37,047 nt of DNA from Halanaerobium saccharolyticum (lineage in GTDB: Bacteria > Bacillota > Halanaerobiia > Halanaerobiales > Halanaerobiaceae). Location of the stretch: NCBI RefSeq assembly GCF_004362045.1, contig NZ_SNWX01000032.1, positions 1-37,047 on the forward strand, written 5' to 3'. Under the pieces are notes generated by a model that was given only the letters and a program-made list of their open reading frames with translations, made no database searches and was not told the origin of the DNA. The stretch's first letter is position 1; every line of letters begins with the position of its first letter. The position numbers and the translations under genes were made by a program. This document shows positions 1 through 37,047 of this stretch, in pieces.

Positions 1-14
1 CAATCCCATGTTAT
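1..14. repeat. Left copy of att core direct repeat (attL)
   Basis: The 14-bp sequence CAATCCCATGTTAT opens the window and recurs exactly at 37034-37047, closing it. A perfect direct repeat at both extremities of an integrase-bearing prophage is the expected product of site-specific integration. The core may be longer, because flanking host DNA is not included. No tRNA 3' end is recognisable in the core. Confidence 0.75.
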
Positions 15-23
15 GTGAATACA

Positions 24-66
24 AATAACGTTTAATAACGAATATTAACTAATCTACGAAATAACG
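24..66. repeat. Three AATAACG repeats beside attL
   Basis: The heptamer AATAACG occurs at 24-30, 34-40 and 60-66 in the non-coding DNA just inside the left att core. Short repeats in this position can bind integrase or excisionase. This is inference from position only, and the AT-rich context makes chance partly plausible. Confidence 0.25.
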
Positions 67-128
67 GTGATTATAGGGCTTTTCTTTCTTTTCCAAAATC
101 AGTATATTAATATATATTAACTGGTTGG

Positions 129-150
129 GTGCAGGATTTGTGCAGGATTT
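129..150. repeat. Putative integrase arm-type sites, left (P' side)
   Basis: GTGCAGGATTT occurs twice in tandem (129-139 and 140-150). The same 22-bp double repeat, with one mismatch, lies at 36954-36975 at the other end of the prophage in the same orientation. Paired direct repeats about 115 bp and 60 bp from the core, on either side of the reconstituted attP, are what a tyrosine integrase with an arm-binding N-terminal domain uses. Binding itself is inferred. Confidence 0.55.
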
Positions 151-190
151 ACTCTTTATATAGTTCTCTAATGAATGCTAGAAACCTTTT

Positions 191-230
191 TAAATAAAAA
201 AATAACCCCGAGCATTCACTCGAGGCTATT
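191..230 (-). terminator. Rho-independent terminator of the late operon
   Basis: On the - strand, 230 to 201 forms a 12-bp stem (219-230 with 201-212, two G-U wobbles) around a 6-nt loop (213-218), followed by a T-rich run (200 down to 191). The wobbles pair only in the - strand RNA, so the terminator faces leftwards and closes the lysis/late operon. An extended reading frame from the last gene would stop inside its loop (216-218). Confidence 0.75.
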
Positions 231-354
231 ATATTTTTCTGCCGCATCAATCAACTTTTGCTCAAAATCAATTTTTTTCTTTCCGAGCAATTCTCGACTG
301 GTCCGCGGTCTGTATTCAGCTTTTAAGTTTTTTCCAAACTCATCATAATCGAAA
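216..354 (-). pseudogene. Out-of-frame 3' continuation of the 355-651 gene
   Basis: Directly after the TAA at 355-357, the +1 frame is open for about 45 codons and stops at 216-218 in the terminator loop. The predicted residues are rich in Glu, Lys and Asp, beginning NFDYDEFGKNLKAEYRPRTS, and look like real coding sequence. The frame has no ATG, GTG or upstream TTG start, so it cannot be an independent gene with a normal start. It is either the tail of the upstream gene cut off by a frameshift or the product of programmed +1 frameshifting. I cannot tell these apart from one sequence. Confidence 0.4.
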
Positions 355-651
355 TTACTTTGACTTGCTTCGAAACTGGCCGATCACATTCATTAAATCA
401 ACTATTACATCTATAGCTTTGTCAACAAGCCCCATGATCGTTTCCTTTTTGAAAGGTAAATCTACAGTATTATCTGCCGCATCATAGACAGCCTCCACCA
501 ATTCGACAATTGCATTTTTCTTTTCTGGACCATGCTTTTTGCCGTCATCGGTATCAGCCTGCTCAAAAATTTCAACAAGTTCTTTTACTTCTTTTAATAC
601 ACCGAAAGCCACCTGAAAAACAGTCCAAATTTTACTTATAGTTGTTAGCAT
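355..651 (-). CDS. Hypothetical late protein, end of lysis module
   Basis: This 98-residue protein of unknown function is encoded last in the late operon, 24 bp after the endolysin. AAGGAGATG precedes the ATG. It is alpha-helical by composition: an amphipathic N-terminal stretch (residues 1-30), an acidic/Lys-rich middle (30-50), and a hydrophobic C-terminal helix (about 70-92) without a clear transmembrane length. The frame stops just before a coding-like stretch in the +1 frame (216-354), so the full product may be about 145 residues. Its position suggests a lysis or membrane-associated role, but no family is recognised. Confidence 0.6.
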   Translation of the reverse strand: MLTTISKIWTVFQVAFGVLKEVKELVEIFEQADTDDGKKHGPEKKNAIVELVEAVYDAADNTVDLPFKKETIMGLVDKAIDVIVDLMNVIGQFRSKSK

Positions 652-675
652 ATTATTAACATCTCCTTATAATTT

Positions 676-1128
676 TTATTTCCAATTTCTTAAAACTTTA
701 TTTACATAGATCTGATTTTCATATTCACCATGTTCATTTTTTCGATTGCTGCCCTGGTTGAATGCGCTTATAGCATCATTCCAATCATTGTAGCGATTGT
801 AATTCCATTTCAGATGCTTGCAGCCAAACTTGATTCCTAGCTCTGGTTTGCTTAGCTCTGATAAGTACCTACCTTTAAATCCCCTTTCTCGAGCAACAGC
901 TCCCATTATCTGCATTAAACCCCAGCTAGTCTTTTGGGACTGTTTTTCAGTTTCGGCGTGCCAATGGAATTGAGAAAATGGTTCAACTAACCAGCGATAA
1001 TGATCTTCATATCTCATGGCAAACGGGTTGCCTGAACTTTCTACTTCAATAATTGCTTTAATTAATCCTGGAGGAATTCCGTATTGTTCAGCATATTTTT
1101 TTATTGCTGCATTAATTTTTTGTTTCAA
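676..1128 (-). CDS. Endolysin, lytic transglycosylase (SLT-like)
   Basis: The 150-residue protein cleaves the peptidoglycan glycan strand at the end of the lytic cycle. It shows the GH23/SLT motifs in order: the catalytic Glu in ESSGNP (30-35), GLMQIM (70-75) and AFNQG (122-126). The ORF starts at TTG after GGGGGTGAT. There is no signal peptide, so release should depend on the adjacent holin-like protein, encoded 4 bp upstream. A tail-associated wall hydrolase is the alternative, but the small size and the location beside a holin-like gene favour endolysin. Confidence 0.85.
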   Translation of the reverse strand: MKQKINAAIKKYAEQYGIPPGLIKAIIEVESSGNPFAMRYEDHYRWLVEPFSQFHWHAETEKQSQKTSWGLMQIMGAVARERGFKGRYLSELSKPELGIKFGCKHLKWNYNRYNDWNDAISAFNQGSNRKNEHGEYENQIYVNKVLRNWK

Positions 1129-1132
1129 AATA

Positions 1133-1372
1133 TCACCCCCCTAAAAGTGTAACTGCCATCCCAACTATCATACTAGACATTACAGTAATCATGACTGTAA
1201 TCGCCCAGGTCGGCCTGCCTTGTAAATTTTCGACTATCTTTGCGATGTCTTGTTTCATATTCTCGATATCTCCCTCATTAGTATTCTTCAAATCTTTTTT
1301 TAATGATCTACCAAACTCGCATCCTTTTTCATTTAGCATCTCAGCATCAATTTCTGAATGTCCGTTTGCCAT
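1133..1372 (-). CDS. Holin-like protein, XhlA-type
   Basis: The 79-residue protein has a charged N-terminal half with coiled-coil character (residues 10-50) and a single C-terminal transmembrane segment (about 55-77, rich in Ile, Val, Met and Thr). This is the layout of the haemolysin XhlA family, which pairs with endolysins in Bacillus-type phages. TGAGGTGAAATT precedes the ATG, and the stop is 4 bp before the endolysin start. Only one membrane span is seen, so it may need a partner to form lesions. No second holin gene is obvious nearby. Confidence 0.65.
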   Translation of the reverse strand: MANGHSEIDAEMLNEKGCEFGRSLKKDLKNTNEGDIENMKQDIAKIVENLQGRPTWAITVMITVMSSMIVGMAVTLLGG

Positions 1373-1455
1373 AATTTCACCTCAAATATTTATATCTATT
1401 TGTTTCCAATTTTGTAAAATCGTCTGCGTAAAAAGTTTGTTTCCACTGGGTAAAT

Positions 1456-2577
1456 CTATATGCTTTTTAATTCTAACCGGTCTTCTAAACCTAGCTGATT
1501 AAGTATTTTATCGTCTAATTTATTAATAACTGACATTGTAAGATTATAACTATTGCAGTGTTTTAAAATTCCCAAATAAGAATTAACACTCGCTCTAATA
1601 TCTTCTAAAGTCACCTCCTCTTCATAATATTTTTTCTGTAAGTATTTTAATTTCTTTTTCATTTTCTTTTTGGTCGATTTTCTCAGTTTGCGATATGGTG
1701 GGTAAGTTACATATCCGCAAAAATCTATTCCATTCCATATATTATCAACAGTAGTTTTGTTATTAAGTTCTAATTTTAGATAATCATCAAGAAATATTTC
1801 TATCTCTTTTCTGATTGTATGTAATTCTTTTTTAGACTTTCCCAAAATAACAAAATCATCCATGTATCTGACATAATGTTTAATTCTGAGATTATGTTTA
1901 ATAAATTTATCTAAAAAATCTAAGTAGACATTTGCAAATAACTGGCTTGTTAAATTGCCTATCGGGATTCCAATTCCTTTTATCTTGCCTTTTTCAAAAT
2001 GATGATCTCCCAGGTGGATTCCAAATTCTCCATCATCACTTTTTATTATTTTCCATAAAAGCTCTAAAGTGTCTCTGCAGCCAATTTTTCTTTTTAGGAT
2101 ATTCATTAAAACATTATGATCAACTCTATAAAAATATTTTGCTACATCTGCTTTTAAATAATAAGTTTCTCTTGGTTTCCTATCCATGATTCTCATTTTA
2201 TCTTGAAGGTGATCTGCAGCATAATGAGTGCCTTTATTTTTCTGGCAAGCGCAAGAATACTGATAAAATATTTTGCTGTAAATCGGATACAATTGACGAT
2301 ATATTCCCCATTGGACTACCCGGTCCCTAAAAGGTAAAGCCATTACTAGCCTTTGCTTTGGTTCATATACATAAAATTGATGATATTTGCCCTGTTCATA
2401 AGTTTTATATATCAGTTCATTCTGCAGCTGGATAAGATTGCTTTCTAATTGACTTGTAAATTTTAACACTTCATGTTTATATCTTTTGCTTTTTCTCGAA
2501 TTCAAATAAGCCTGGTATAAATTTTCAAAATCATATATTTTAGAATAAATATTTCTAACTTTTTTCGGGATAACCAA
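1456..2577 (-). CDS. brt: DGR reverse transcriptase
   Basis: The 373-residue reverse transcriptase copies the TR RNA into adenine-mutagenised cDNA for transfer to the VR. Visible RT motifs are KADVAKYFYRVDH (142-154, first catalytic Asp), IGNLTSQ (206-212) and YMDD (238-241, the metal-binding aspartates). The [I/V/L]GxxxSQ form of motif 4, instead of the QGxxxSP of group II introns, is characteristic of DGR RTs. There is no maturase or endonuclease domain and the length is typical for the class. The start is TTG at 2577, because an in-frame TGA lies immediately upstream. The gene lies 231 bp downstream of the TR on the same strand. Confidence 0.95.
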   Translation of the reverse strand: MVIPKKVRNIYSKIYDFENLYQAYLNSRKSKRYKHEVLKFTSQLESNLIQLQNELIYKTYEQGKYHQFYVYEPKQRLVMALPFRDRVVQWGIYRQLYPIYSKIFYQYSCACQKNKGTHYAADHLQDKMRIMDRKPRETYYLKADVAKYFYRVDHNVLMNILKRKIGCRDTLELLWKIIKSDDGEFGIHLGDHHFEKGKIKGIGIPIGNLTSQLFANVYLDFLDKFIKHNLRIKHYVRYMDDFVILGKSKKELHTIRKEIEIFLDDYLKLELNNKTTVDNIWNGIDFCGYVTYPPYRKLRKSTKKKMKKKLKYLQKKYYEEEVTLEDIRASVNSYLGILKHCNSYNLTMSVINKLDDKILNQLGLEDRLELKSI

Positions 2578-2807
2578 TCACCACTTTCTCTATATTTGGG
2601 TGAAAAGAAAAGCCTACCCAAATGAGAGCAGGCTGTCGCTGACTGTGATAACTTTCTATGTTTCAATACTAGCTATCTGGCCAGCAATTCAAATTTTTTG
2701 CTGGATTGACTTTTATTAAGTTCTCAGCAGGGATTAAAGGCCTGTTCTCTAAAAACACTGTAATAGTGGCCGTAACCAACTATTATCTGTAAAATTTATA
2801 TAAAGAG
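2578..2807 (-). ncRNA. Non-coding spacer between TR and RT, probable part of the DGR RNA
   Basis: No ORF with a ribosome-binding site is seen in these 230 bp. The - strand RNA can fold into several hairpins: a perfect 7-bp stem 2681-2687/2698-2704, a perfect 8-bp stem 2594-2601/2616-2623, and an overlapping 5-bp stem 2611-2615/2630-2634 followed by U-rich sequence that would compete with the latter. In the Bordetella DGR the RNA downstream of TR is required for cDNA synthesis. The same role here is inferred. The competing hairpins near the RT start could also attenuate RT expression. Confidence 0.5.
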
Positions 2808-2915
2808 CACAGGCGCCGCGGCAACCGTTATTGCTGTTGACATTCCACGGATAGTTGTTCAGATTCACCGTCCGAGCGCCGCAATTGACACCGTTGCTCC
2901 AGTTGCCGCCAGCAC
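2808..2915 (-). repeat. DGR template repeat (TR)
   Basis: This 108-bp non-coding copy of the VR at 3322-3429 has a constant coordinate offset of 514. The 13 mismatches (2831, 2832, 2837, 2844, 2852, 2856, 2858, 2864, 2865, 2871, 2886, 2895, 2903) all fall on T of the + strand, that is, A of the coding strand. None of the other 84 positions differs. The GC-rich end 2808-2830 is identical to VR and is the likely initiation-of-mutagenic-homology (IMH) side. Read in the VR frame, TR encodes mostly AAC/AAT codons at the variable positions, the usual DGR design. It begins 22 bp downstream of the avd stop. Confidence 0.97.
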
Positions 2916-2937
2916 CAACGCCTTTAACCCCATAAAT

Positions 2938-3231
2938 TTATAAGCAAGATTTAATCCAACCACCTAACATTCGGCCGATTTCATCTATTTTCTTAGATAC
3001 ATTTTCGTATTTCTTGTGACTTAAATATTTTCTGTCATGAGCAAACCTGATCAACATTCTTAATTGCTCAATTTTGACATCAATTCTATTCAAAAATCTA
3101 ACTTTGCTTTTTGATTTATTAGCTTCAATAATTAATTTTGATATTTCCAATACTAAATTTTTAATTTGTGTACATAAAACAAACTTTTCATATTTTGGGA
3201 AGTTATCCACTATTGGAAAAAACCACTTCAT
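2938..3231 (-). CDS. avd: DGR accessory variability determinant (Avd)
   Basis: The 97-residue basic, all-helical protein lies between the variable-protein gene and TR, the place of avd in the BPP-1 DGR. Avd is a small four-helix-bundle protein, related in fold to the 23S rRNA intervening-sequence proteins. It forms a pentamer that binds the RT and the TR RNA. The Lys/Arg-rich helical pattern and its C-terminal half, with RMLIRFAHDRKYLSHKKYE, fit that family. It is somewhat shorter than the Bordetella protein (128 residues). No strong Shine-Dalgarno sequence precedes the ATG, so the start is less certain than the family call. Confidence 0.85.
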   Translation of the reverse strand: MKWFFPIVDNFPKYEKFVLCTQIKNLVLEISKLIIEANKSKSKVRFLNRIDVKIEQLRMLIRFAHDRKYLSHKKYENVSKKIDEIGRMLGGWIKSCL

Positions 3232-3310
3232 TAAGTCATATAGCTTTTGTTGTATAGTTAAGTTCTTAATTCAAAACCACCCCAAACCAAAACCATTTCC
3301 AAATTACAAA

Positions 3311-4342
3311 TTACAGAGAATCACAGGCGCCGCGGCAACCGTTAACGCTGCTGACATGCCACGGACAGTCGATCAGAGCCACCGCCCGAGCGCCGCAATA
3401 GACACCGTGGCTCCAGCTGCCGCCAGCACGCATAGCAATTAATGATACATTATTTTGCATATATGCCTGGCCTTGACCATCTGAGCTGTCTTTTCCTGCA
3501 TTTAAAACATCATGCCAATCAAAGCCAGTTGATCCTGTATTTCTATAAGTAAATTCATCTAACCATTCTTGGACATTCCCTGCGCAATCAACAATTCCAT
3601 GAACAGAAACTGCTTGTTCTACAGTACCTGTTGCAGCTCTACCACTATTGCTTGTTGCAGACCATGCAGCATTATTGTCGCCATCATGACCCTGCGGACT
3701 ACCATAAGCAGCTTGAATCCATTCCGCATAACTTAACATTCTTTTATCTACATTACTAAATAACCTTTGAAAATCATACCAGCAGTAACCTTCTGTACCA
3801 GTAACAGGTGTCGAATTATATTCGCTGACTACTTCTTGATCAGGCCAGCTACCAGCTCCGTGACTTGTGAGGTAAATATCTACCCAGATGTCTCCCACTT
3901 TTGCCATGCCGGTAGGGTCGCAAGTCGGTCTATTCTGCAAATCCCAAACTGAATTAGAAACTATATTAACATCAATGCTTGCGTTATCATTGAAAGCATC
4001 AGCTGTCGATCTTATTCTTCCATAATGAAACCCACCAATTTTCCTTGAATTATTTTCTGTATATCCATCTGGATAAGTTGAGTTAATTGATATAACAAAA
4101 TCCGGCTCAGCATCAGCTGATGGCTGCAGTGCATATATATAATAGTTTTCTCCAAGAGTGAAACTTGCAAAGCTGCCGTCATTATCTGCAACAGTTAAAA
4201 TAGTGTCAGTCTCTTTTTTGAGATTTTGCCTATCAATTCTCAAAGCTAATGGAGGTACTGTAATTTCATCAGCTGCACTCTTTTCAATATGTCCTTTGAA
4301 GTTGAAAAACGAAGGTGAATCAGCTCCAACGAAAGTTAACAT
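3311..4342 (-). CDS. DGR variable protein, receptor-binding tail protein with CLec/FGE-like fold
   Basis: This 343-residue protein is the target of the DGR. The N-terminal part (about 1-130) is probably a tail-attachment module. From about 140 it resembles formylglycine-generating-enzyme-type C-type lectins, with GNVQEW (255-260) and a C-terminal AGGSW...CGAR...NGCRGAC segment (306-340). The VR covers residues 305-341. Eleven residues there differ from the TR-encoded version: 309, 312, 315, 320, 322, 324, 325, 326, 329, 331 and 333. The FGE-like fold is used as a display scaffold in DGR proteins such as Mtd and TvpA; enzymatic activity is not implied. GGAGGTGATTGATCA precedes the ATG, which overlaps the preceding stop. 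It follows tail-tip and fibre genes, so it most likely sits at the tail tip and binds the host surface. Confidence 0.92.
   Translation of the reverse strand: MLTFVGADSPSFFNFKGHIEKSAADEITVPPLALRIDRQNLKKETDTILTVADNDGSFASFTLGENYYIYALQPSADAEPDFVISINSTYPDGYTENNSRKIGGFHYGRIRSTADAFNDNASIDVNIVSNSVWDLQNRPTCDPTGMAKVGDIWVDIYLTSHGAGSWPDQEVVSEYNSTPVTGTEGYCWYDFQRLFSNVDKRMLSYAEWIQAAYGSPQGHDGDNNAAWSATSNSGRAATGTVEQAVSVHGIVDCAGNVQEWLDEFTYRNTGSTGFDWHDVLNAGKDSSDGQGQAYMQNNVSLIAMRAGGSWSHGVYCGARAVALIDCPWHVSSVNGCRGACDSL
3322..3429 (-). repeat. DGR variable repeat (VR)
   Basis: This is the mutable copy of TR at the 3' end of the variable-protein gene, ending 8 bp before the stop codon region at 3311-3313. It matches TR 2808-2915 except at 13 sites, each an A in the TR coding strand. 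There are 24 such adenines in TR and about half have changed. Replacements include N to S, H, Y, A, I, D and V. The last 23 bp (3322-3344) are identical and GC-rich, as expected for IMH. Homology stops abruptly at both ends. Confidence 0.97.
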
Positions 4343-4647
4343 TGATCAATCACCTCCTGGACTTCATCAATTGTAAATCCTAGTTTAAATATTTTACCAT
4401 CTGGATTATTTACTAATTTATATTGCACTATCTTTTCTGTTCCCTCTTCTTCCTGAGTCATAACTTTGTACTCAGGCTCAGGGCCAGTTCTATCAGATTC
4501 TGCTGCAAGTTCTTTGTCAAACTCATACTTTTTGGCTGTATTTAGCAGCCCCTGGTATGCTCTTTTTACTTTTGGTGTGTAGCCAAAGTCATTAATCACA
4601 TTTTCATAATCCTGTCTTGAATTAAGCACTTTTGGAAAACCTCTCAT
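4336..4647 (-). CDS. Hypothetical tail-region protein
   Basis: This 103-residue acidic protein is not assigned to a known family. Residues 1-30 include FPKVLNSRQDYENV, and the C-terminus ends in a short helical stretch (FTIDEVQEVI). Its stop overlaps the start of the variable-protein gene by 7 bp, so the two are probably translationally coupled. Coupling immediately before a receptor-binding protein would fit an assembly chaperone or a small tail component; this is inference only. GGAGGTTAGATAAC precedes the ATG. Confidence 0.7.
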   Translation of the reverse strand: MRGFPKVLNSRQDYENVINDFGYTPKVKRAYQGLLNTAKKYEFDKELAAESDRTGPEPEYKVMTQEEEGTEKIVQYKLVNNPDGKIFKLGFTIDEVQEVIDQC

Positions 4648-4648
4648 G

Positions 4649-5344
4649 TTATCTAACCTCCATTGCTAATGAGCCGTCAATCATTTTAAATTCGTAAATA
4701 TCCCCTGTTGTTTCGTCTATTAAGTTGTTTTCTGGGTTTGAGCCCTCAGGGCCAGCTTTTACAAGCCCGTACTCTACTTTTTGAATTGTTCCATCTATTA
4801 CTGCATCAAATAGAACTATAGTTGTCTCATCATTAGTTGAGCTGTAATTAGCTGATTCTACAGCAGAATATACTGAACTAGAATCTAATGTCGCTTTTAT
4901 TTTTCTATTGGTGACAAATACATCCGTGTAATCTCCGGGCACTGTAAAAGTTTCAGCGCTTACATATGTTACAGTTAACGCGCTGTCAATCCATTCGGTC
5001 ATATTTTCAGCAAGGTCAGACTTGATAGTTCCGTCCTCATTCATAGCTACTTCCAACCGCTCCCAGAGGGTTTCTTTTGAACCCCTGGCAACTCTTAAGT
5101 CTTTTATATACGGATTATACTCATTTGCTAATATCCAGCTTGAGCCGTTCCAAAATTTTAATTTAGCGTCAGTCCAGCCCGATGAAATATCTAACCATGG
5201 TTGGCCTTGAGTAGGAGACCCAGGAGAACTTGCTCCTGCCCATTGGCTTATTATTGTTTCAAAGTTTTCATGGAGATATTCGGCCAGTTTGGGGCCGTTA
5301 GAGTCTCCCATATCTGCTAACGATTTATGATATTCTTGAGTCAT
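4649..5344 (-). CDS. Tail fibre-like protein
   Basis: In this 231-residue protein, residues 35-75 contain a Ser/Gly/Pro-rich stretch followed by WLDISSG and LKFWNGSSWI. That is the pattern common in phage tail-fibre and collar proteins, where a WxNTST/PPxxKxWNGxxW element links to the fibre shaft. The C-terminal half is beta-rich. It is encoded directly after the J-like tail-tip protein, with the variable protein two genes on, so it likely connects the tail tip to the receptor-binding protein. There is no catalytic motif. AAAGGAGTGATCAG precedes the start. Confidence 0.65.
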   Translation of the reverse strand: MTQEYHKSLADMGDSNGPKLAEYLHENFETIISQWAGASSPGSPTQGQPWLDISSGWTDAKLKFWNGSSWILANEYNPYIKDLRVARGSKETLWERLEVAMNEDGTIKSDLAENMTEWIDSALTVTYVSAETFTVPGDYTDVFVTNRKIKATLDSSSVYSAVESANYSSTNDETTIVLFDAVIDGTIQKVEYGLVKAGPEGSNPENNLIDETTGDIYEFKMIDGSLAMEVR

Positions 5345-5356
5345 CTGATCACTCCT

Positions 5357-8095
5357 TTAATATCCTTCTATTATTAATTCTTCTATTGTCCCTCCGACAT
5401 CATTGTTGTTAATATCTAATATTTTTACATCTACACTTGTTTTACTTTTATTTGTAAAGTTAGCATATTTCATTGTTGACCCATTCTGAACAATATCAGC
5501 GGAATATCTAACCGGAACTTTATAAAATTCTATCCCATAATCAGAATAATTTATTGTTTTCCCACCTGTATCAACTGAAATATATCTTTCTACAAGTTCT
5601 AAATCAGGAACATCAAATATCATTTCAAGTTGCTCAATTTCAAATTCTGTGCTTTCAGTTTCTATATTAATTTCAGCCTTAAATTGCGCGTATCTGAACT
5701 TATATTCGCCTGTCATATACTGCTGCCAGTCAGACCAGTCTATGTTATCATCAGAAAATTTTACATAAATTTGAGTATCATATATTGCAGGTGGATTATT
5801 CATACTGTTATTTGGGAAATCATTTAGATTTCTATCATTGAAACTAAGTAAACTTAAATCTAAATCTTGAAAAAACCAATCTTTTTTAATCCTTATATCA
5901 GTTCTGCCTACATGACCTGTGTCTATAGCTTCTGTAATGTAATTTGCCTGTTTCTCAAAATCTGGAATTCCGTTTGAATAAGCTTCCAAATCAGGCCAAT
6001 CGTTAAGAGTATAATTTTGCAAATCATTAAGAGTAAACATATGATTAAACATAATTTTATTATTTATTTTGCTTAAATTTTCAAGTGTAGCATTGTCTAT
6101 ATAATTAAGTTCATTTCTTTCCTGTATTATATTGAGTTCGAGGCCTGTATCTGAAACCTCAAAAATAGTAGAAGTATAATTTACTGATTTTTGCTTAACT
6201 CTATCAATAGACTTGATCATGTATCTGTGAGTGCCATCTAGTTCATTTTCTGATGTCCATCTATCCCCAGTTAGTTTGGTCCCGAGAATATCTCCGTTTT
6301 CCCAGTCGGTTCCTTTTCTAATTTCATAACCTAATATGTCTGGTTCATCAACTTCAGACCATTTAAAAATAACTTTTGCTCCTTTTTGAGCTACTTGCAG
6401 AGTATTGGGCGCTGCAGGTTTATTATCTTTCCCAGAAATAACTATTGAGTTTGAAACCACTCCCGCACTTGTTATCCCTCTATATTTTGACACTGATCTA
6501 ACTCTAATTTTATAATTGGAATTAACTTTAAGATTCTTAATTTCATAATCATCAGTTTCGGTTGTTCCAGCTATTTGATAATTTCCTCCATCTTCTGAAT
6601 AATCAACAACTGCATGGTCAAATCTTTCATCGTCAGGAATATCAAATTCAACAACTAGATTAGAATTAAGATTTCCATCTATAGTTGTATATCCATATTC
6701 AGTAACAGATAAATTGTTAACTTCTTTTGGCGCTTCAAAAGGATTTTTAAATGTAGATGCATAATTTTCCTGCTGGACTAAACCATCGTCAGTATATATT
6801 GCTTCATTATATTCAATAGCAGTAATAGACATATTTTCTTCATTGTCTTCTGATATTTCTGTTATACGAAAAGGTTTGTCTACCCACCCAGGCCTTTCAT
6901 GAGTAACTAATATTTTATCTCCTACTTCTGCTTCAATTGAGTTTATACCAGCACCAAAGCTAATTATTTGAGTGCATAACTTTGATTTTTTCTGATAATA
7001 TCTTGCTTCTCTACCCGCTTGAGAAAATCTATTAACACCATTCAGGGTTATAGTTTTCATAGCTTCACCAGACACGCTGTTATCTATGAATCTAGCTCCA
7101 ATAGTTTCAAAGTTTTCAGCTGGGTCCGTATATTCAACTACAACTTCTCTTAATCTTTCTTTCCTGGAAGAACCTCGCCTTCCAAAGCTTCCTTCGATAA
7201 TATTATCTGTTTCTTCATCATCAGAAAATATAAAACTTTGAGTTGCTACATCTGGTTTATCAATCTTTAATTTTAATTTTCCATCGGACCAGATAAGAAA
7301 TGCTCTAAAAGTAGAAAGCATCTCATTAAGAATATCCAATGCTGAACTTTTAGCATCAATAACAAAATCTAACTCAAAGCGCTTTTCCCCGTCCACATAT
7401 TGATCAGCATATTCTGCAGCCTCTTTGAAAGTTTCTAAATCTATAAAAGCATCAGCGACACCAAAACCAAATCTTTTGTTACTTATAAAATCTAAAACAC
7501 ACCAGGCAGGGTTATTACTGTATTTTGTTATCCATCGGCTGCCGGTCCAAACTCTTACATGCCGCCCTTTTACAATCGCGGTCATAGTTGGAGTGCCTGA
7601 TGTCTCTAGTTTTTCAGCATCTAAAGTTGTTGAGTAATGGGCAAGATAAGGAAATGTTTGAGAATGCTCGTTTTTCGACCATGAAGATTGGTTTCTATAT
7701 CCTAATCTAGTTTCTGCACTAATAGATTTATCATCGGCTTTGATTTCTGAAATTGATTCAATCGGGCCTTCCGAAATTCCAACTTGCAGATCCATTAAAT
7801 TATCATTTTCGCCGCGAATCTTTTGGTTAATTATGTTTCCTGCTACAAGATTCCGGCCATAAACTACCGGGACTGGTATCTGATGAGACTTAGTATTACT
7901 AATCGGGCCAAATGAATATGTTGGAGAATTTTTTGATTGATTCATGCTTTCTTGAAATTCTTTGGCTTCTTTATAGTTGTCATAAGAATTACCTACACTA
8001 AATCCAATCATTGCTCCGGCTGCTACTGTAACACTTGCCGCTGTACTAGCTGCTGCAGCTCCTGCTGCTAATCCAACTAATGCTCCTACTCCCAT
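5357..8095 (-). CDS. Tail tip / host-specificity protein, lambda J-like (TipJ)
   Basis: The 912-residue protein is the central tail-tip hub of a lambda-like siphovirus tail. The N-terminus has a Gly/Ala-rich hydrophobic segment (5-35), then a conserved hub region with IPVPVVYGRNLVAGNII and GISEGPIESI. Residues of about 450-650 look like two fibronectin type III domains (for example KPAAPNTLQVAQKG, then DEPDILGYEIRKG). The order K-like, then J-like is as in lambda. It is shorter than lambda J (1132 residues), and receptor recognition here is probably taken over by the downstream fibre and DGR protein. GCGAGGTGAGGAA precedes the ATG. Confidence 0.85.
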   Translation of the reverse strand: MGVGALVGLAAGAAAASTAASVTVAAGAMIGFSVGNSYDNYKEAKEFQESMNQSKNSPTYSFGPISNTKSHQIPVPVVYGRNLVAGNIINQKIRGENDNLMDLQVGISEGPIESISEIKADDKSISAETRLGYRNQSSWSKNEHSQTFPYLAHYSTTLDAEKLETSGTPTMTAIVKGRHVRVWTGSRWITKYSNNPAWCVLDFISNKRFGFGVADAFIDLETFKEAAEYADQYVDGEKRFELDFVIDAKSSALDILNEMLSTFRAFLIWSDGKLKLKIDKPDVATQSFIFSDDEETDNIIEGSFGRRGSSRKERLREVVVEYTDPAENFETIGARFIDNSVSGEAMKTITLNGVNRFSQAGREARYYQKKSKLCTQIISFGAGINSIEAEVGDKILVTHERPGWVDKPFRITEISEDNEENMSITAIEYNEAIYTDDGLVQQENYASTFKNPFEAPKEVNNLSVTEYGYTTIDGNLNSNLVVEFDIPDDERFDHAVVDYSEDGGNYQIAGTTETDDYEIKNLKVNSNYKIRVRSVSKYRGITSAGVVSNSIVISGKDNKPAAPNTLQVAQKGAKVIFKWSEVDEPDILGYEIRKGTDWENGDILGTKLTGDRWTSENELDGTHRYMIKSIDRVKQKSVNYTSTIFEVSDTGLELNIIQERNELNYIDNATLENLSKINNKIMFNHMFTLNDLQNYTLNDWPDLEAYSNGIPDFEKQANYITEAIDTGHVGRTDIRIKKDWFFQDLDLSLLSFNDRNLNDFPNNSMNNPPAIYDTQIYVKFSDDNIDWSDWQQYMTGEYKFRYAQFKAEINIETESTEFEIEQLEMIFDVPDLELVERYISVDTGGKTINYSDYGIEFYKVPVRYSADIVQNGSTMKYANFTNKSKTSVDVKILDINNNDVGGTIEELIIEGY

Positions 8096-8099
8096 TTCC

Positions 8100-8486
8100 T
8101 CACCTCGCTCTCCATATACTATGCAATTTTTTTCTCCACTTTGAAAATTTACTTATTCTTGCTTTCGAATTATCAAATATGTGTATAAATCTATAATTGT
8201 CAATCAAAATACCTGCATGTCTTGGCATTCCTCCGACTTCAAAAACAACAACATCTAAGGGCTGCTTATTTTTTTTATTTATCTGATCACAATATAAACT
8301 TAATCCTTCGGGCAGTCTATTTGGATTTTCTTTCATCCAGTCAGGTGGCAAAATTTCTCCATCGTTATCTGGGAGATTAATATTATTATCTGCTAAAACA
8401 TCGACAACCAGTCCTAAACAGTCATAACCTTCTTCCCCTCGGCCGTTAAACTTATATTCTTTACCTAAATACTTTTCTAAATCCAT
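8100..8486 (-). CDS. NlpC/P60-family tail peptidase, lambda K-like
   Basis: This 128-residue protein has an NlpC/P60 triad: Cys23 in YDCLGL, His90 in PRHAGI and a third polar residue at His102. It is expected to cut peptide stems of peptidoglycan during DNA entry. Lambda K also has an N-terminal JAB-type domain; only the NlpC/P60 half is present here. The start overlaps the preceding gene's stop (TGATG), and the gene lies between L-like and J-like genes exactly as in lambda. Confidence 0.85.
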   Translation of the reverse strand: MDLEKYLGKEYKFNGRGEEGYDCLGLVVDVLADNNINLPDNDGEILPPDWMKENPNRLPEGLSLYCDQINKKNKQPLDVVVFEVGGMPRHAGILIDNYRFIHIFDNSKARISKFSKWRKKLHSIWRAR

Positions 8487-9325
8487 CAGTCAACACGCCT
8501 CACATTTCTAATTTTCGGAATGTCTAAGAAACCGCCATAAAACTGAGTGTTATTCCAGTATTTACACCCATGACCACCGTTATAGGTTAAATCACAGCCG
8601 GCTTCTAAATGATAACTGTCGCCCGCCTGAGCATTTTGAAAAGGATATTCAACATCTACAAAACCACTTGCAGAATAAATTATTTTTCTGCTTTCATTTC
8701 CAACCTTTATAATTCCATGTTTCCAGCGATCAGCCGGCTGATTCATTGCACTATCATATATTCTGTTATTAGATATGCTGTCAATGGTCCCATTTAAAGT
8801 TGGGATATTGTAACCGCAACCTTCTCCACCAAATCCACCAGGCCATCTGCAATTAACCCCGTAACTTCTGCGAGGTAATTCGACTTCTAAAGCATCAAGA
8901 TTAGACACAAGCTCAGCAGTTAAATTATATTCATCAGTTGAAATTGAATCGATAACTGAGTCAGTGAACATTTCTATTTTGTTTTCAAATTTGTCTAAGT
9001 GATTTCGAAATACTTTCCAGATCGTTACTTTTCTACCCTCGAATTGAGTATTAGCAATATAGGCCGAAAAGTTTTTATTGACATTATCAAAGGTGACTGT
9101 CACACTATCTGGAGCTGTCTTGTTATTCTTTTTGATTTTGCTTCTACTGATACTTGCTGCATAATAGGTTTGTTCATTCCCCTGCTCATCAAAAAACGCT
9201 ATATTCTCAGGGAACATAGCGTAGTACAAAGTTTCTTCATCTAATTTTATTTGATATAGTTCTATCGGCCAGTTATAATCTTTATCTTTTTCTGCAATTA
9301 CATCAGGGCTGAGAGTTCGGGGCAT
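8486..9325 (-). CDS. Minor tail protein, lambda L-like (BR0599/DUF2163 type)
   Basis: In this 279-residue protein the C-terminal part contains spaced Cys residues in NCRWPGGFGGEGCGYN and CDLTYNGGHGCKYWNN. This recalls the phage BR0599/DUF2163 C-terminal domain and the four-Cys iron-sulfur site reported for lambda gpL. The rest is beta-rich, as in tail-hub proteins. Position between the M-like and K-like genes supports a tail-tip hub role. Metal binding is inferred from the Cys pattern. Confidence 0.75.
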   Translation of the reverse strand: MPRTLSPDVIAEKDKDYNWPIELYQIKLDEETLYYAMFPENIAFFDEQGNEQTYYAASISRSKIKKNNKTAPDSVTVTFDNVNKNFSAYIANTQFEGRKVTIWKVFRNHLDKFENKIEMFTDSVIDSISTDEYNLTAELVSNLDALEVELPRRSYGVNCRWPGGFGGEGCGYNIPTLNGTIDSISNNRIYDSAMNQPADRWKHGIIKVGNESRKIIYSASGFVDVEYPFQNAQAGDSYHLEAGCDLTYNGGHGCKYWNNTQFYGGFLDIPKIRNVRRVD

Positions 9326-9682
9326 TTAAACCAGCTCCTTTAATTCAATTGAAAATGAGTGAGCTTTATTGTCATATACTTCATCGCTTAATTTAGACTG
9401 GTTGAATCTAACTTTTATGTCAGACTCAATTATGTTTCCTTCTGAGTCTTTATAATCCCAGAGAAAAGGTTCATATTCGCCCTTTCTGGCATAGAAAAAG
9501 TTTGCTATTTCTTCTGCATCATTGTTATAATTGCTTGTTTTGTCAAATTCTAGTTTGAACACTCTGAAAGGCAAACCTTTGGGGCGCCTCTGTTCTCTAC
9601 CGCCTTCCATTTTGGTGATAAGAGTATTGGTGTTAATATCAACAACCCATGCTTTTTTGTACTTGTAATCAAATTTTTCCAA
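9326..9682 (-). CDS. Minor tail protein, lambda M-like
   Basis: This 118-residue beta-rich protein begins at TTG with AAGGAGGTGAGCTT in front. The segment FYARKGEYEPFLWDY (residues about 66-80) resembles the conserved core of the lambda M/DUF2460-type minor tail proteins, which join the tape-measure complex to the tail tip. The gene order tape measure, M, L, K, J supports this. The stop abuts the L-like start. Confidence 0.65.
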   Translation of the reverse strand: MEKFDYKYKKAWVVDINTNTLITKMEGGREQRRPKGLPFRVFKLEFDKTSNYNNDAEEIANFFYARKGEYEPFLWDYKDSEGNIIESDIKVRFNQSKLSDEVYDNKAHSFSIELKELV

Positions 9683-9694
9683 AAGCTCACCTCC

Positions 9695-31555: not shown

Positions 31556-32092
31556 TCAACCCCTTGTGTCACCTTCTAAAGCATTTAGCAAATCTTTAAG
31601 TTCTTTGTTTAATTCAAACCGATCAGGTCTAACTGGCATAACTAAGCCAACCAGATTTCCGTTGTCAGAATAAATTGCGACAATAGAAATTTCACTCTTG
31701 ATTTTTAATTGATAACCTTCAAAAATTTGATAATAATTATCTTGCATTACACCAACGCAATTGTTGGTATAATAAAGTCTATATTCATCATCAAATATAA
31801 ACTTAGATGCTTTTGCCGGTTCAAAACTATCTAGTTTTTCAAATAATTCTCCGATATCCGGGCCATCTCCACTCAAAGTCATTCCATAGGTGGAGCACTT
31901 ATCTCCAACTTCTAAATCTGGTATATAGGCATTTCTTTTTAATGAAGAATATTTACTCTTGAATCTATTAAACTGATTTTGATTCATCCTAATTAAAAAA
32001 TACGTATTAGTTACCCAATAAGTGTTTTCTTCTTCCCGCCAACAATGAACATTATCTTTCTTTAACTCCTTAATTGCTTTTTTAATTTTCAT
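31556..32092 (-). CDS. Hypothetical early protein
   Basis: This 178-residue alpha/beta protein has NGNLVGLVMPVRPDRFE near the C-terminus (about 145-161). No confident family. It is encoded directly upstream of the replication initiator, 4 bp apart, so a replication or regulation role is possible. Confidence 0.65.
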   Translation of the reverse strand: MKIKKAIKELKKDNVHCWREEENTYWVTNTYFLIRMNQNQFNRFKSKYSSLKRNAYIPDLEVGDKCSTYGMTLSGDGPDIGELFEKLDSFEPAKASKFIFDDEYRLYYTNNCVGVMQDNYYQIFEGYQLKIKSEISIVAIYSDNGNLVGLVMPVRPDRFELNKELKDLLNALEGDTRG

Positions 32093-32450
32093 TAGGCCTT
32101 TCCTCCTCTAATAGTTTTGATTTTCTCAACCTCAGATTACTAAATTTAATCTTTTCTTTCTCCAGTATTTCATTTGCCCGCCAGAATGGATTATCGTCAC
32201 TTCTGAAAAAGAAATACATTGTCTGACCTAATTCCTTATCAAAATAAATGGCCTCGTAAAGTTCCATATTTGCCTCTTTCTCGTCAATCTTCTTTTCGAT
32301 AGCCTTTTGTACCTTAATCTCAATCGTCTGCTCGTTTGATACGAGATTATCCAAATATTCGTCGGCTGTTAAGACAGTTCCGACCGCAATTCCAATAGAA
32401 AAGACCATGATGAAAAAACTGAATGCTATTTTTTTGTTAATTGTCATCAT
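32082..32450 (-). CDS. Membrane-anchored hypothetical protein
   Basis: In this protein of about 122 residues an N-terminal hydrophobic segment (about 8-28, FSFFIMVFSIGIAVGTVL) acts as a signal anchor, with a charged helical remainder expected outside or peripheral. No lipobox. I prefer ATG 32450 to 32456 for spacing from GGAG. Overlaps the neighbours at both ends. Function unknown. Confidence 0.6.
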   Translation of the reverse strand: MMTINKKIAFSFFIMVFSIGIAVGTVLTADEYLDNLVSNEQTIEIKVQKAIEKKIDEKEANMELYEAIYFDKELGQTMYFFFRSDDNPFWRANEILEKEKIKFSNLRLRKSKLLEEERPNEN

Positions 32451-32674
32451 TTCCATCGCTCCAGGTTGTTAATGTTTTTAAATTCTGATATATTATAGTT
32501 AGATTGTTTTTTCTTAACTAGCTTAGCTGATTCGAACTCAGCTGAGCTTTTTCTGCTTTTTCTCCATAATTTTCTGATGTTTTCAAAAAGAAAGAGAATG
32601 ATTTTCTGTAATAAAAAACTCCAGATCATTCCCATTATGAATGTTTGTAGTAATAACTTCTCTATCTCTGTCAT
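32447..32674 (-). CDS. Small membrane protein
   Basis: This 75-residue protein has one hydrophobic helix (about 8-30, LQTFIMGMIWSFLLQKIILFLF) followed by a basic cytoplasmic-type tail. Overlaps the next membrane-anchored protein, suggesting they work together. Function unknown. Confidence 0.6.
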   Translation of the reverse strand: MTEIEKLLLQTFIMGMIWSFLLQKIILFLFENIRKLWRKSRKSSAEFESAKLVKKKQSNYNISEFKNINNLERWK

Positions 32675-34630: not shown

Positions 34631-34673
34631 GTAATTGTACAATCATAGTGAACATACAGAAAGGAGCAAAATT

Positions 34674-35285
34674 ATGAGTTTGGGCGAAAAAATTAAAAAG
34701 ATTAGAAAAGAAGCTGGTTATACTCAATCAGATTTAAGAGAAAAAGCTAATATATCTAAAGGTTATTTATCTGAAATAGAGAATGATAAGCAAGAACCTT
34801 CTTTAAAAGTACTTAGAAGAATAGCTAAAGCTTTAGGTATATCCTCCTCTTACCTTTTAAGCGAATTTGAAAACCACGAAAATAAAATAGAAGGATATAA
34901 AGAATTTGAAATTATACCAGTGTTAGGTTCAATAGCAGCAGGCCAACCTGTATTTGCTGAGGAAAACATTAAAGAATATGCAAAAGTTCCTACTGAGAAA
35001 GTTCAAAACGGTCAATATTTTTATTTAGAAGTTAGCGGCGACAGTATGATCGGAGCTGGGATTCATGAAGGCGATTTAGTTTTGGTTAGAAAACAAAACG
35101 ATGTAGCACATAAAGAAATAGCGGTTGTTATGGTTAATGCTCATGATGCCACTTTAAAGAGAGTCTTCAAGCAAAACGGCAATGTAATTTTACAGCCAGA
35201 GAACAAAAAGTATGATCCAATTTTTATTAAAAGTAAAGACGCAAGAATTATTGGCAAAGTTGTTGGTCTCACAAGATCATTTTAA
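34674..35285 (+). CDS. CI/LexA-type prophage repressor
   Basis: This 203-residue protein has an N-terminal XRE HTH (5-60, IKKIRKEAGYTQSDLREKANISKGYLSEIE in parts) and a C-terminal S24 peptidase domain. Cleavage site Ala89-Gly90 (SIAAGQ), Ser124 in SGDSM and Lys162 in ATLKRVF form the self-cleavage machinery, so induction should follow the host SOS response. I start it at ATG 34674, after AAAGGAGCAAAATT; the longer frame to 34635 begins within the promoter leader. All catalytic residues are intact. Confidence 0.93.
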   Translation: MSLGEKIKKIRKEAGYTQSDLREKANISKGYLSEIENDKQEPSLKVLRRIAKALGISSSYLLSEFENHENKIEGYKEFEIIPVLGSIAAGQPVFAEENIKEYAKVPTEKVQNGQYFYLEVSGDSMIGAGIHEGDLVLVRKQNDVAHKEIAVVMVNAHDATLKRVFKQNGNVILQPENKKYDPIFIKSKDARIIGKVVGLTRSF

Positions 35286-35792: not shown

Positions 35793-36965
35793 ATGGCAAG
35801 TGAACCCAGAAAGACTAAAGCAGGCAACTGGGAAGTATTTGTCTATATGGGCCGGGATTCTGAAGGTAAACAAATTAGAGAAAGCAGCACTTTCGATACA
35901 AAAAAAGAAGCTCAAAGGTGGGCCAGAGATAAAGAGCTAGAAAAAGAAACGGGCATCTTGATGGAATTTGCCAACATGACTTTCAAGCAGTATATTGACA
36001 GGTGGTTTGATGAGTATGTAGATGAGCAGCTGTCTCCTGTTACTCATGATAGGTACTATAATGTACTCTATCATCAAGTTCTAAAAATGCTGGGTAAATT
36101 AAAACTTAAAGAGATTCAGCCGGCTCACATTCAGTCTTACCTCACTTCTATTCGAAAGCGCGGCGGAAGTACAAAAACTCAACAATATCATTATGCGATT
36201 ATCTCTTCTGCTCTCACTTATGCCGATGAAATGAATTATATTTATCAAAATCCAATACAGAATGTCAGGAAGCCTGGTGGCAAAACTCAGCGAAAAGTCA
36301 CAAAGAAAAAGAAAAAAGTAAAAGCAATCAATAGAGATATGCTTAAAAAATGGCTAGAATTTGTTCAGGATTATGATCAGTATCTATTTGATTATTGTTA
36401 CATTGCAATTAATACCGGAATGTGTCTTGAGGAGATGATAGGCTCCAGGTGGAAGGATTTAAACTTTAGCAAGGGGATTATTACTGTTGAGCAGGTTGCT
36501 GTCTATGTTATCGGCAGAGGAACTGTATTTAAAGAGACTCCGAAAGCGGCTGATAGGTTTAGAAAGATACCTATATCAGATAGCCTAGCAAACTTTTATC
36601 GCGGTATCTGGAAAAGGCAGCAGGAAATGAAAATGCACTTAGGCGATGAATATAAGGACCATAATTTAATTCTTTGCAAAGATGATGGAGAACATTATGC
36701 TCCCAGAACTGTACAGAATAAAATAAGAAAAGCCAGAGAAGCTGGCGGCTTCCCTGACTGGATCACATCCCATATATTTCGACACACTTTTGCATCTCTA
36801 TTTTTAGCTGAAAACAAAAATATTAAAGAACTTCAAAAGTTACTCGGCCACTCTTCTTACGTGATTACTGCTGATACTTACAGCCATTTTCTAAAGAAAG
36901 ATTTTGAAAGAGCGAGAAATGATATTTCAAAAGCTGTAGGGTCCGTTTTCTCAGTGCAGGATTAG
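35793..36965 (+). CDS. int: Tyrosine integrase with Cys in place of the first catalytic Arg
   Basis: The 390-residue phage integrase has an AP2-like arm-binding region at about 1-55, a SAM-like core-binding domain at about 60-165 and a catalytic domain at about 185-375. The C-terminal box is intact: His327 and Arg330 (HIFR), His353 (LLGH) and Tyr363 (ADTYSHF). The first box reads NTGMCLEEMIGSRW instead of the usual TGxRxGE. The catalytic Arg is therefore Cys211 (TGT, one transition from CGT) and the Gly is Glu. The enzyme may be inactive or impaired. It lies next to the right att site, and its last codons overlap the arm-type repeats. Confidence 0.93.
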   Translation: MASEPRKTKAGNWEVFVYMGRDSEGKQIRESSTFDTKKEAQRWARDKELEKETGILMEFANMTFKQYIDRWFDEYVDEQLSPVTHDRYYNVLYHQVLKMLGKLKLKEIQPAHIQSYLTSIRKRGGSTKTQQYHYAIISSALTYADEMNYIYQNPIQNVRKPGGKTQRKVTKKKKKVKAINRDMLKKWLEFVQDYDQYLFDYCYIAINTGMCLEEMIGSRWKDLNFSKGIITVEQVAVYVIGRGTVFKETPKAADRFRKIPISDSLANFYRGIWKRQQEMKMHLGDEYKDHNLILCKDDGEHYAPRTVQNKIRKAREAGGFPDWITSHIFRHTFASLFLAENKNIKELQKLLGHSSYVITADTYSHFLKKDFERARNDISKAVGSVFSVQD

Positions 36966-37033: not shown

Positions 37034-37047
37034 CAATCCCATGTTAT
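37034..37047. repeat. Right copy of att core direct repeat (attR)
   Basis: CAATCCCATGTTAT, identical to 1-14, ends the window. It lies 69 bp downstream of int. Together the two copies define the prophage boundaries. Confidence 0.75.

Follow-up and report, generated by a model that had tools for sequence, protein, structure and literature searches.

Among the closest described systems, the diversity-generating retroelement (DGR) of Bordetella phage BPP-1 comprises a target gene (mtd) with its variable repeat (VR), avd (bbp7), a template repeat (TR), a spacer RNA and a reverse transcriptase (RT) gene (brt), arranged in this order on one strand. One study reports that disrupting the stem of the BPP-1 hairpin lowers tropism switching over 1000-fold, and proposes the hairpin 3' of VR as a conserved requirement (PMC3240598). 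According to three papers, the hairpin/cruciform is an efficiency element in BPP-1, and a subset of DGRs needs it (PMC3240598, PMC3521204, PMC12875486). How the cDNA locates and replaces VR is called incompletely understood in the last of these (PMC12875486). The Chromohalobacter phage YPCBV-1 has a Mtd-like target alongside an annotated Avd and RT, and in the Faecalibacterium phage Lagaffe a Mtd-like target, an Avd-like protein and an RT are annotated.

We analysed a 37,047-nucleotide stretch of DNA from Halanaerobium saccharolyticum, hereafter the window. The sequence analysis confirmed positions 1456 to 4342, on the minus strand, as a DGR in the BPP-1 order. The element is very probably an active BPP-1 (Mtd)-type DGR of a temperate tailed phage with a probable Halanaerobium host; the phage is called temperate because of its CI-like repressor. 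The features are as follows.

1..14, no strand: att core, left copy, 14 bp (terminal repeat; circular junction of viral contig L019)
1456..2577, minus: DGR reverse transcriptase, TTG start, with IGNLTSQ and YMDD (phrog_1423, bRT structure, tree)
2639..2807, minus: structured RNA, Rfam RT-14, presumed RT/Avd-binding spacer of the DGR RNA (covariance model)
2808..2915, minus: template repeat TR, 108 nt, 24 adenines (repeat search)
2938..3231, minus: avd; homologous frame reaches 3270, non-ATG start possible (PF22296, NF033474)
3232..3321, minus: region 3' of VR, hairpin/cruciform site in canonical DGRs, none found here (scans, folding)
3322..3429, minus: variable repeat VR, 108 nt, GC-rich 3' end (repeat search)
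3311..4342, minus: target gene, predicted 343-aa Mtd-like tail protein with VR in a C-type-lectin-type C-terminal domain (PF21916, phrog_11262, structures)
4336..4647, minus: 103-aa ORF upstream of the target (DUF6509 match only, below its cut-off)
4649..5344, minus: 231-aa ORF without family match
5357..8095, minus: J-like central tail protein (phrog_31, 6.7e-88; PF13550, fn3)
34635..35285, plus: CI-like repressor, HTH and peptidase S24 (domains)
35793..36965, plus: phage tyrosine integrase (PF00589, phrog_1)
37034..37047, no strand: att core, right copy, 14 bp (terminal repeat; circular junction of L019)

The initial annotation had listed a 343-residue frame with VR at its 3' end, an Avd-like frame, a TR and an RT, all on one strand in the BPP-1 order. 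Each part was recovered on the minus strand, with TR and VR offset by 514 and with IGNLTSQ at residue 206 and YMDD at residue 238 of the RT. The list had missed the RT-14 RNA, and although all genes and repeats of a complete DGR are there, as it had stated, the target-site hairpin of BPP-1 was not found. It had also placed the element directly behind J-like and fibre genes; the J-like gene is there, whereas the two frames between it and the target gave no support for a fibre.

The window resembles BPP-1 further in the predicted fold of its target, in its RT and Avd (27% identity for Avd), and in the structured RNA directly 3' of TR. It differs from BPP-1 in that nothing in the target aligns with roughly the first 50 residues of Mtd, a J-like tail gene lies upstream, the RNA belongs to RF02921 instead of RF03022, and no hairpin was found 3' of VR where BPP-1 has an 8-bp GAAA hairpin. 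The YPCBV-1 target is 46% identical to that of the window, but its RT is only 33% identical and a stable stem lies 3' of its VR. Lagaffe likewise has a stable stem 3' of VR, with a 7-nt loop; its RT is 45% identical, and its target is absent from the 15 records matched by the window target. A second DGR resides in the same genome (L002, G000 contig C6). Its RT is 81% identical to that of the window, and it has its own Avd, TR and VR (16/16 mismatches at adenines) and a RT-14 RNA. In contrast, its target is unmatched by the window target, its Avd is 34% identical, and an imperfect GATA-loop hairpin is present.

The 14-bp terminal repeat of the window is accompanied by a circular junction in L019, and the same kind of junction was observed in all six loci with a close integrase (L170 to L175; L175 is the L019 contig). 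A search with patterns from both phage ends found no junction with host DNA and matched L019 alone. The att core is identical in sequence to the 3' terminus of attC-like sites in the host. The integron integrase model TIGR02249 has matches in 12/12 genomes of the genus and in 14/14 control genomes, none over the cut-off, so that this model singles out no integron integrase. One ORF of 368 aa scores 230.8 bits with NF040815 (XerA / integron integrase), above the cut-off of 220, and fails TIGR02249.

Target protein, RNA element and repeats

The target matches mtd_2nd (PF21916, 3.6e-24), the tail family phrog_11262 (8e-54) and, in a sequence search, the Bordetella Mtd structures (1.4e-16). The initial annotation had taken this protein for the phage adhesin, and its structure was predicted with AF2. 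The model built on 62 aligned sequences has a pLDDT of 94 (a prediction with 15 aligned sequences, pLDDT 36, was not used) and superposes on the Mtd fold with a Z score of 33 across 294 residues. The structural alignment begins at residue 6 of the model and residue 50 of Mtd; the mean pLDDT of model residues 1-10 is 59. The model supports the target as a Mtd homologue with a C-type-lectin fold and VR at the C-terminus. By analogy with Mtd, it may be an adhesin that binds a receptor at the tail tip, and the DGR might drive receptor switching.

The avd frame matches the bAvd family (PF22296) at 1.3e-32, or 3.8e-36 when extended, and NF033474 with 118.9 bits, above the cut-off of 80. Homology extends beyond the first ATG by 13 codons on the upstream side, up to 3270, so translation may really start at a codon other than ATG. 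The RT-14 RNA (RF02921, 50.4 bits, gathering value 48.1) sits directly 3' of TR, as it does in related DGRs, and its helices covary.

Of the 108 aligned positions of TR and VR, 13 are mismatched, each at one of the 24 adenines of TR (hypergeometric P 1.2e-10), a pattern far beyond chance; their similarity ends at the limits of the 108 nt. The pair was also recovered by a repeat search without adenine bias. The TR/VR finder used on relatives favours adenine mismatches and drops pairs with less than about 70% of them, so that pooled adenine fractions are biased upward. Computation indicates that the TR adenines can alter 14 codons, 10 of them AAY, giving about 1.5e14 protein variants with no stop codon within reach. 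No second target or remote VR copy for the window TR was found in the genome.

The region 3' of the variable repeat

A hairpin or cruciform 3' of VR is not strictly DGR-defining. Folding in silico covered every 34-nt stretch between -8 and +112 relative to VR. The best local fold reaches only -1.5 to -3.6 kcal/mol in all 10 distinct Halanaerobium Mtd-type regions, and no hairpin 3' of VR was found in any of the ten; 48 of the 51 other regions fold at -5.3 kcal/mol or lower, two of which (L111 and L115) are no better than background. G runs 3' of VR raised the idea of a G-quadruplex that might stand in for the hairpin; judged by eye, these runs are not conserved in the clade. A promoter scan was uninformative (13 sites versus a mean of 15.7 in shuffles).

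We consider it rather likely that the DGR lineage of the window retrohomes without a GC-rich GRNA-loop hairpin 3' of VR. A more specific and tentative reading is that the Halanaerobium Mtd-type DGRs are a lineage in which the VR-side hairpin has been lost and retrohoming works efficiently via another target signal, read by their divergent Avd. Such a signal could be, for example, AATCTG and a ATGGTTTTGG-like stretch seen by eye just 3' of VR.

It seems unlikely that a hairpin is present but was overlooked, being distant, long-looped or inside the target gene, in which case the locus would hold nothing unusual. In strict scans the co-resident DGR and Lachnospiraceae elements did appear to lack a hairpin, until free folding revealed imperfect ones in both; that of the co-resident DGR is itself modest, at -8.2 kcal/mol with a z of about -1.7 to -2.0. 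Nanoarchaeal DGR hairpins, according to two papers, lie within the target gene (PMC4372165, PMC5006420), and our scans covered the 3' side of VR. However, nothing strong emerged when the 85 nt that follow VR were folded freely at 12 Halanaerobium Mtd-type loci, nor in the scan of the 10 distinct regions, and the only inverted repeat in 3200-3330 is a single 7-nt pair, 76 nt apart.

Variation between near-identical phages

Activity was deduced from assembled contigs. Viral contig L019 equals window positions 1-4273 outside VR (0 differences in 4165 bases), with RT, Avd, TR and RNA 100% identical, and its VR differs at 15 positions, 15/15 at TR adenines. This comparison indicates that the window DGR has recently been active. 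L026 and L028, which are of the same Mtd type and also gave no hairpin, differ in VR at 15 positions, again all at adenines, and once in 5461 bases outside it; between L027 and L028, VR has changed with RT, Avd, TR and RNA kept, as in window/L019. The initial annotation expected VR variants to be confined to TR adenines, which holds at contig level for window/L019 and L026/L028, whereas some relatives deviate. In the worst pair, L038/L050, 9/12 VR changes lie at adenines and 3/12 elsewhere; changes off TR adenines number 3/23 in L038/L039, 1/15 in L002/L039 and 2 of 14 to 17 in the L023 pairs, and 2/15 TR/VR mismatches within L023 are not at adenines.

That a once-active DGR is now frozen, with old TR/VR differences and a dead machine, is very improbable. 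Decay does occur in the genus: on contig L067 of Halanaerobium salsuginis, the target and the final third of an RT gene are left, and the TR/VR finder gave no pair there. Hairpin loss would also suit a decayed DGR. Yet the reading frames of the window are intact, its RNA helices covary, and the 15 adenine-site changes beside identical machinery are paralleled in another Mtd-type lineage (L026/L028 and L027/L028).

Still less probable is an origin of the VR differences in homologous recombination with target genes of other phages, without retrohoming. Recombination does take place at the target-DGR block, as L021 and the 5' end of the L019 target show, and comparison of L021 with L171 suggests that target and DGR can be exchanged as one block. 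It would, however, bring changes at further bases too, whereas the window/L019 differences end at the VR edges and affect only TR adenines, the bases beside VR and between adenines being identical.

As for the enzyme itself, the window RT matches phrog_1423 (1.1e-136) and the BPP-1 bRT structure 8ub7 (2.3e-55). In a quick tree of 74 rows it clusters with RTs of DGR loci, including that of BPP-1, as the initial annotation would predict. Four of five other RTs of the same genome fall apart from it; the fifth, L007, has a very long branch and an unsure placement, and L004, a sixth and weaker match, was left out. There is next to no chance that the RT belongs to another kind of system, be it a group II intron, a retron or a defence RT, and stands beside a chance repeat: the best NCBIfam match of the RT is group_II_RT_mat, yet its 117.8 bits fall well short of the cut-off of 300, and this shortfall, the RT tree, the bRT structure match and the DGR-type I/L/VGxxxSQ motif (IGNLTSQ here, QGxxxSP in 4/5 of the other same-genome RTs compared) led us to reject a group II intron or defence RT, with phrog_1423 and the Avd equivalog also against another system.

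Proposed mechanism and significance

By analogy with BPP-1, the TR transcript would be bound by Avd and RT through the folded RT-14 RNA 3' of TR. The RT would copy TR, misreading adenines, and the cDNA would replace VR at the 3' end of the Mtd-like gene, altering codons of the C-type-lectin-type domain. Retrohoming would proceed without a GRNA-loop hairpin 3' of VR. Recombination that swaps the whole target-DGR block would provide a second route of change.

The place of the RT-14 RNA in these DGRs suggests a role for this Rfam family. The near-identical contigs provide base-exact evidence for recent diversification of a tail protein in phages of a little-studied host. If the lineage indeed retrohomes without the hairpin, Avd, RNA or target, and not RT, would set the need for it, because the same-genome DGR with an 81% identical RT keeps its hairpin. 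A natural lineage with a varying VR and no hairpin found, beside a hairpin-bearing DGR of the same genome, may permit a direct swap experiment.

Organization of the retroelement and its target

The window is the entire contig C32 of the host genome G000 (3.36 Mb, 79 contigs) and contains portal, terminase, protease, capsid, repressor and integrase genes; by gene content, it is therefore a temperate tailed phage. The target with its variable repeat (VR), avd, the template repeat (TR) and the reverse transcriptase (RT) share one strand, as initially annotated, and this is the minus strand. Of the J-like and fibre genes placed before the target in that annotation, the former stands, but the two ORFs that follow it have no convincing family.

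Features of the window, in order of transcription
5357-8095, minus strand: J-like tail gene (phrog_31)
4649-5344, minus strand: short ORF without convincing family (family searches)
4336-4647, minus strand: short ORF without convincing family (family searches)
3311-4342, minus strand: target, 343 aa, with the VR in its 3' end
3322-3429, minus strand: VR
2938-3231, minus strand: avd, homologous frame open to 3270
2808-2915, minus strand: TR
2639-2807, minus strand: structured RNA, Rfam RT-14 (50.4 bits; gathering score 48.1)
1456-2577, minus strand: RT
After the RT, minus strand: 79-aa ORF
676-1128, minus strand: lytic transglycosylase, downstream of the 79-aa ORF
1-14 and 37034-37047: att core, CAATCCCATGTTAT

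The homologous N-terminus of avd (3231-3270) has no ATG, GTG or TTG start, and its frame opens with ATT. With the frame extended to this codon, the bAvd score is 124.3 instead of 112.9 bits, and translation may begin at AUU. The target matches Mtd structures by sequence (1.4e-16). Structure prediction, suggested as a check by the initial annotation, gave a model with pLDDT 94 and the Mtd fold (Z 33, 2.1-2.2 Å over 294-295 residues; next rows Z 17.6 or lower), aligned from Mtd residue 50 onwards.

The gap-free alignment of TR and VR spans 108 nt. It contains 13 mismatches, every one at a position where the TR has one of its 24 adenines (P 1.2e-10; A>G seven times, A>C and A>T three times each). 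The TR adenines fall in 14 target codons, 10 of which are AAY. No adenine change can create a stop codon in the target, and about 1.5e14 protein variants are possible. A TR/VR pair was recovered in 31 of 37 loci; 29 of the pairs are distinct. Adenines account for 333 of the 348 mismatches, a pooled figure that is biased because the finder favours adenine mismatches.

The closest solved relative of the window RT is bRT of BPP-1. RT phylogeny, also proposed earlier, was run as a quick 74-row tree with SH-aLRT support only, in which, as the software cautioned, long branches adjoin one another. A 19-row clade with support 100 unites the window RT with the RTs of viral contigs, of the co-resident DGR and of one Halanaerobiales MAG, and the BalMu-1 RT lies in the next clade out (28 rows, support 98). 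Of the five other G000 RTs included in the tree, four are placed elsewhere; L007, the fifth, has a very long branch of unsure placement. The I/L/VGxxxSQ motif is present in 73 of 85 RT rows, the other 12 being seven fragments and these five G000 RTs.

Variation and exchange among related phages

L019, a 5455-base viral contig, is identical to window positions 1-4273, including RT, Avd, TR and RNA, except for 15 differences in the VR, all at TR adenines. The expectation that VR variants are confined to TR adenines, checked here on contigs, thus held for this pair. A further 35 differences lie in the gene before the target and in the target's initial 69 bases, which places a recombination edge there. 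Nine further pairs were taken from contigs more than 95% identical. At the level of sequence, DGR gene content, the adenine pattern and recent VR change are all demonstrated.

VR differences at adenines over all VR differences, then differences outside the VR
L026/L028: 15/15; 1 in 5461
L027/L028: 12/12; 10 in 5795
L026/L027: 14/14; 822 in 9926
L023/L027: 12/14; 11 in 10232
L023/L028: 13/15; 2 in 6295
L023/L026: 15/17; 823 in 9928
L002/L039: 14/15; 1 in 3672, within the TR
L038/L050: 9/12; 0 in 5420
L038/L039: 20/23; 84 in 7172

Between about 5850 and 4500, the related locus L021 and the window are identical. They then diverge across target, avd, TR, RT (56-76% in blocks 3900-1500) and the lysis genes, and identity returns to 99.9% from the att core to 35841. 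Deeper in the phage they part once more (83% at 31690-32452, for example); they are therefore mosaic relatives rather than one phage with a single swap.

The second DGR of G000 (L002, C6:132104-136213; TR 1143-1257, VR 574-688) is followed by lysis-like ORFs. Its RT is 81% identical to that of the window, whereas its target is unmatched by the window's. The window RT is about 70-72% identical to those of other Mtd-type elements (93% for L068), and its Avd is 34% identical to the co-resident Avd and 56-66% to other Mtd-type Avds. DNA identity between the two co-resident elements climbs close to the RT gene start, from about 52% to 76%. The discordant RT and Avd identities suggest that RT modules have been exchanged; the order of the three RT groups was not resolved by the 74-row tree.

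RT matches at E 1e-60 or better were found in 2 of 12 genus genomes searched, G000 having two and the other a piece, with a 90% match to the same RT part as in an H. salsuginis contig (target 72%, RT piece 90% identical to the window's). These matches make Halanaerobium the probable host. L067 (H. salsuginis, 5400-9845) is a decayed DGR that keeps the target and only the last third of the RT gene; the finder recovered no TR/VR pair there.

Spacer RNA and the region 3' of the VR

RT-14 lies directly 3' of the TR above gathering in 11 of 16 other sources (L002, L019, L040, L043, L044, L046-L049, L052, BalMu-1). L021, L028, L034 and L068, not listed in the first search, scored 45.4, 46.7, 45.9 and 48.4 bits at this place in a laxer one (gathering 48.1). 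For 17 of 20 predicted pairs, an alignment of 13 rows shows both-side changes in at least one row. BPP-1 has RF03022 directly 3' of its TR, whereas the window has RT-14 (RF02921). Since it lies directly 3' of the TR in the window and its relatives, RT-14 occupies, by position, the expected DGR RNA spacer site in this clade. RT motifs were reportedly described in an earlier paper; the literature searched, which did not include that original description, contained no mention of RF02921.

Phage DGRs are described as carrying GC-rich 7-10 bp hairpins, closed by a GRNA loop, at 4-34 bp 3' of the VR; breaking the stem reduced tropism switching more than 1000-fold, and a conserved requirement was proposed (Guo et al. 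2011, PMC3240598). Other sources describe the hairpin as needed in a subset of DGRs (PMC3521204), or as important yet not strictly required (PMC12875486). We surveyed 113 loci, of which 76 had a TR/VR pair; removal of 15 duplicate or too short regions left 61, with best 34-nt folds of -14.8 to -1.5 kcal/mol. Thirteen were weaker than -5 kcal/mol, namely 10 distinct Halanaerobium Mtd-type regions, L070, L072 and L109. No hairpin was found in the 34-nt folds of these 10 (window, L020-L023, L030, L031, L033, L034, L068), which cover Halanaerobium Mtd-type loci with a TR/VR pair and so leave out L029, L032, L035-L037, L051 and L067. Mtd-like targets also occur in L070 and L072, and in L069, which has a hairpin. 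Folding recovered the hairpin in BPP-1, the co-resident DGR, sister loci L043-L049 and L052, BalMu-1 and the four Lachnospiraceae elements folded. For L111 and L115, which are among the 48 stronger regions, the fold does not exceed that of stretches picked at random from the same locus.

Across 14 Halanaerobium Mtd-type loci (L024 and L025 omitted as copies of L023), 166 of 175 TR/VR mismatches found by the same adenine-favouring finder are at adenines, and the VR differs within two sets of near-identical phages of this type. On these signatures, retrohoming in this lineage seems to proceed either with no hairpin that can be recognised or with a differently formed signal.

Attachment sites and working model

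The host genome contains 23 copies of the att core (reversed control, 0), with sites on G000 contigs C12, C14, C38, C45, C53, C56 and C60 (L064-L066, L166-L169). At 20 of the 21 places outside the window contig it ends a fully extracted hairpin-like element of 107-162 nt, and the remaining one has the same flank. In all, 26 such elements were extracted. The variable bases at an element's 3' end equal the 5' start of the next element in 21 of 23 cases, but that of the same element in just 9 of 28 (shuffled mean 6.4), the pattern to be expected if these are attC sites of an integron cassette array. The phage thus seems to attach at attC 3' ends, although a search with patterns of both phage ends revealed no phage/host junction. 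A Vibrio prophage flanked by attC sites is a described precedent (PMC9892861). In five related circular phage contigs (L170-L174), the att cores vary at one base, AATC[C/A/T]CATGTTAT; the A form equals a variant site in the host array, and these variants may be traces of earlier integration into different sites of the array. On C38 (L166 2415-3521), a 368-aa tyrosine recombinase of XerA/integron-integrase type (NF040815, over cut-off) is encoded some 0.5 kb away from the closer of two att-like sites, and is possibly the integrase of the array.

Our literature search found no paper on both Halanaerobium and diversity-generating retroelements. By analogy with BPP-1, we infer priming, integration and receptor use. 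Avd and RT would bind the folded spacer RNA, and the RT would copy the TR, erring opposite adenines. The cDNA would replace the VR, and the phage population would display many tail-protein variants.
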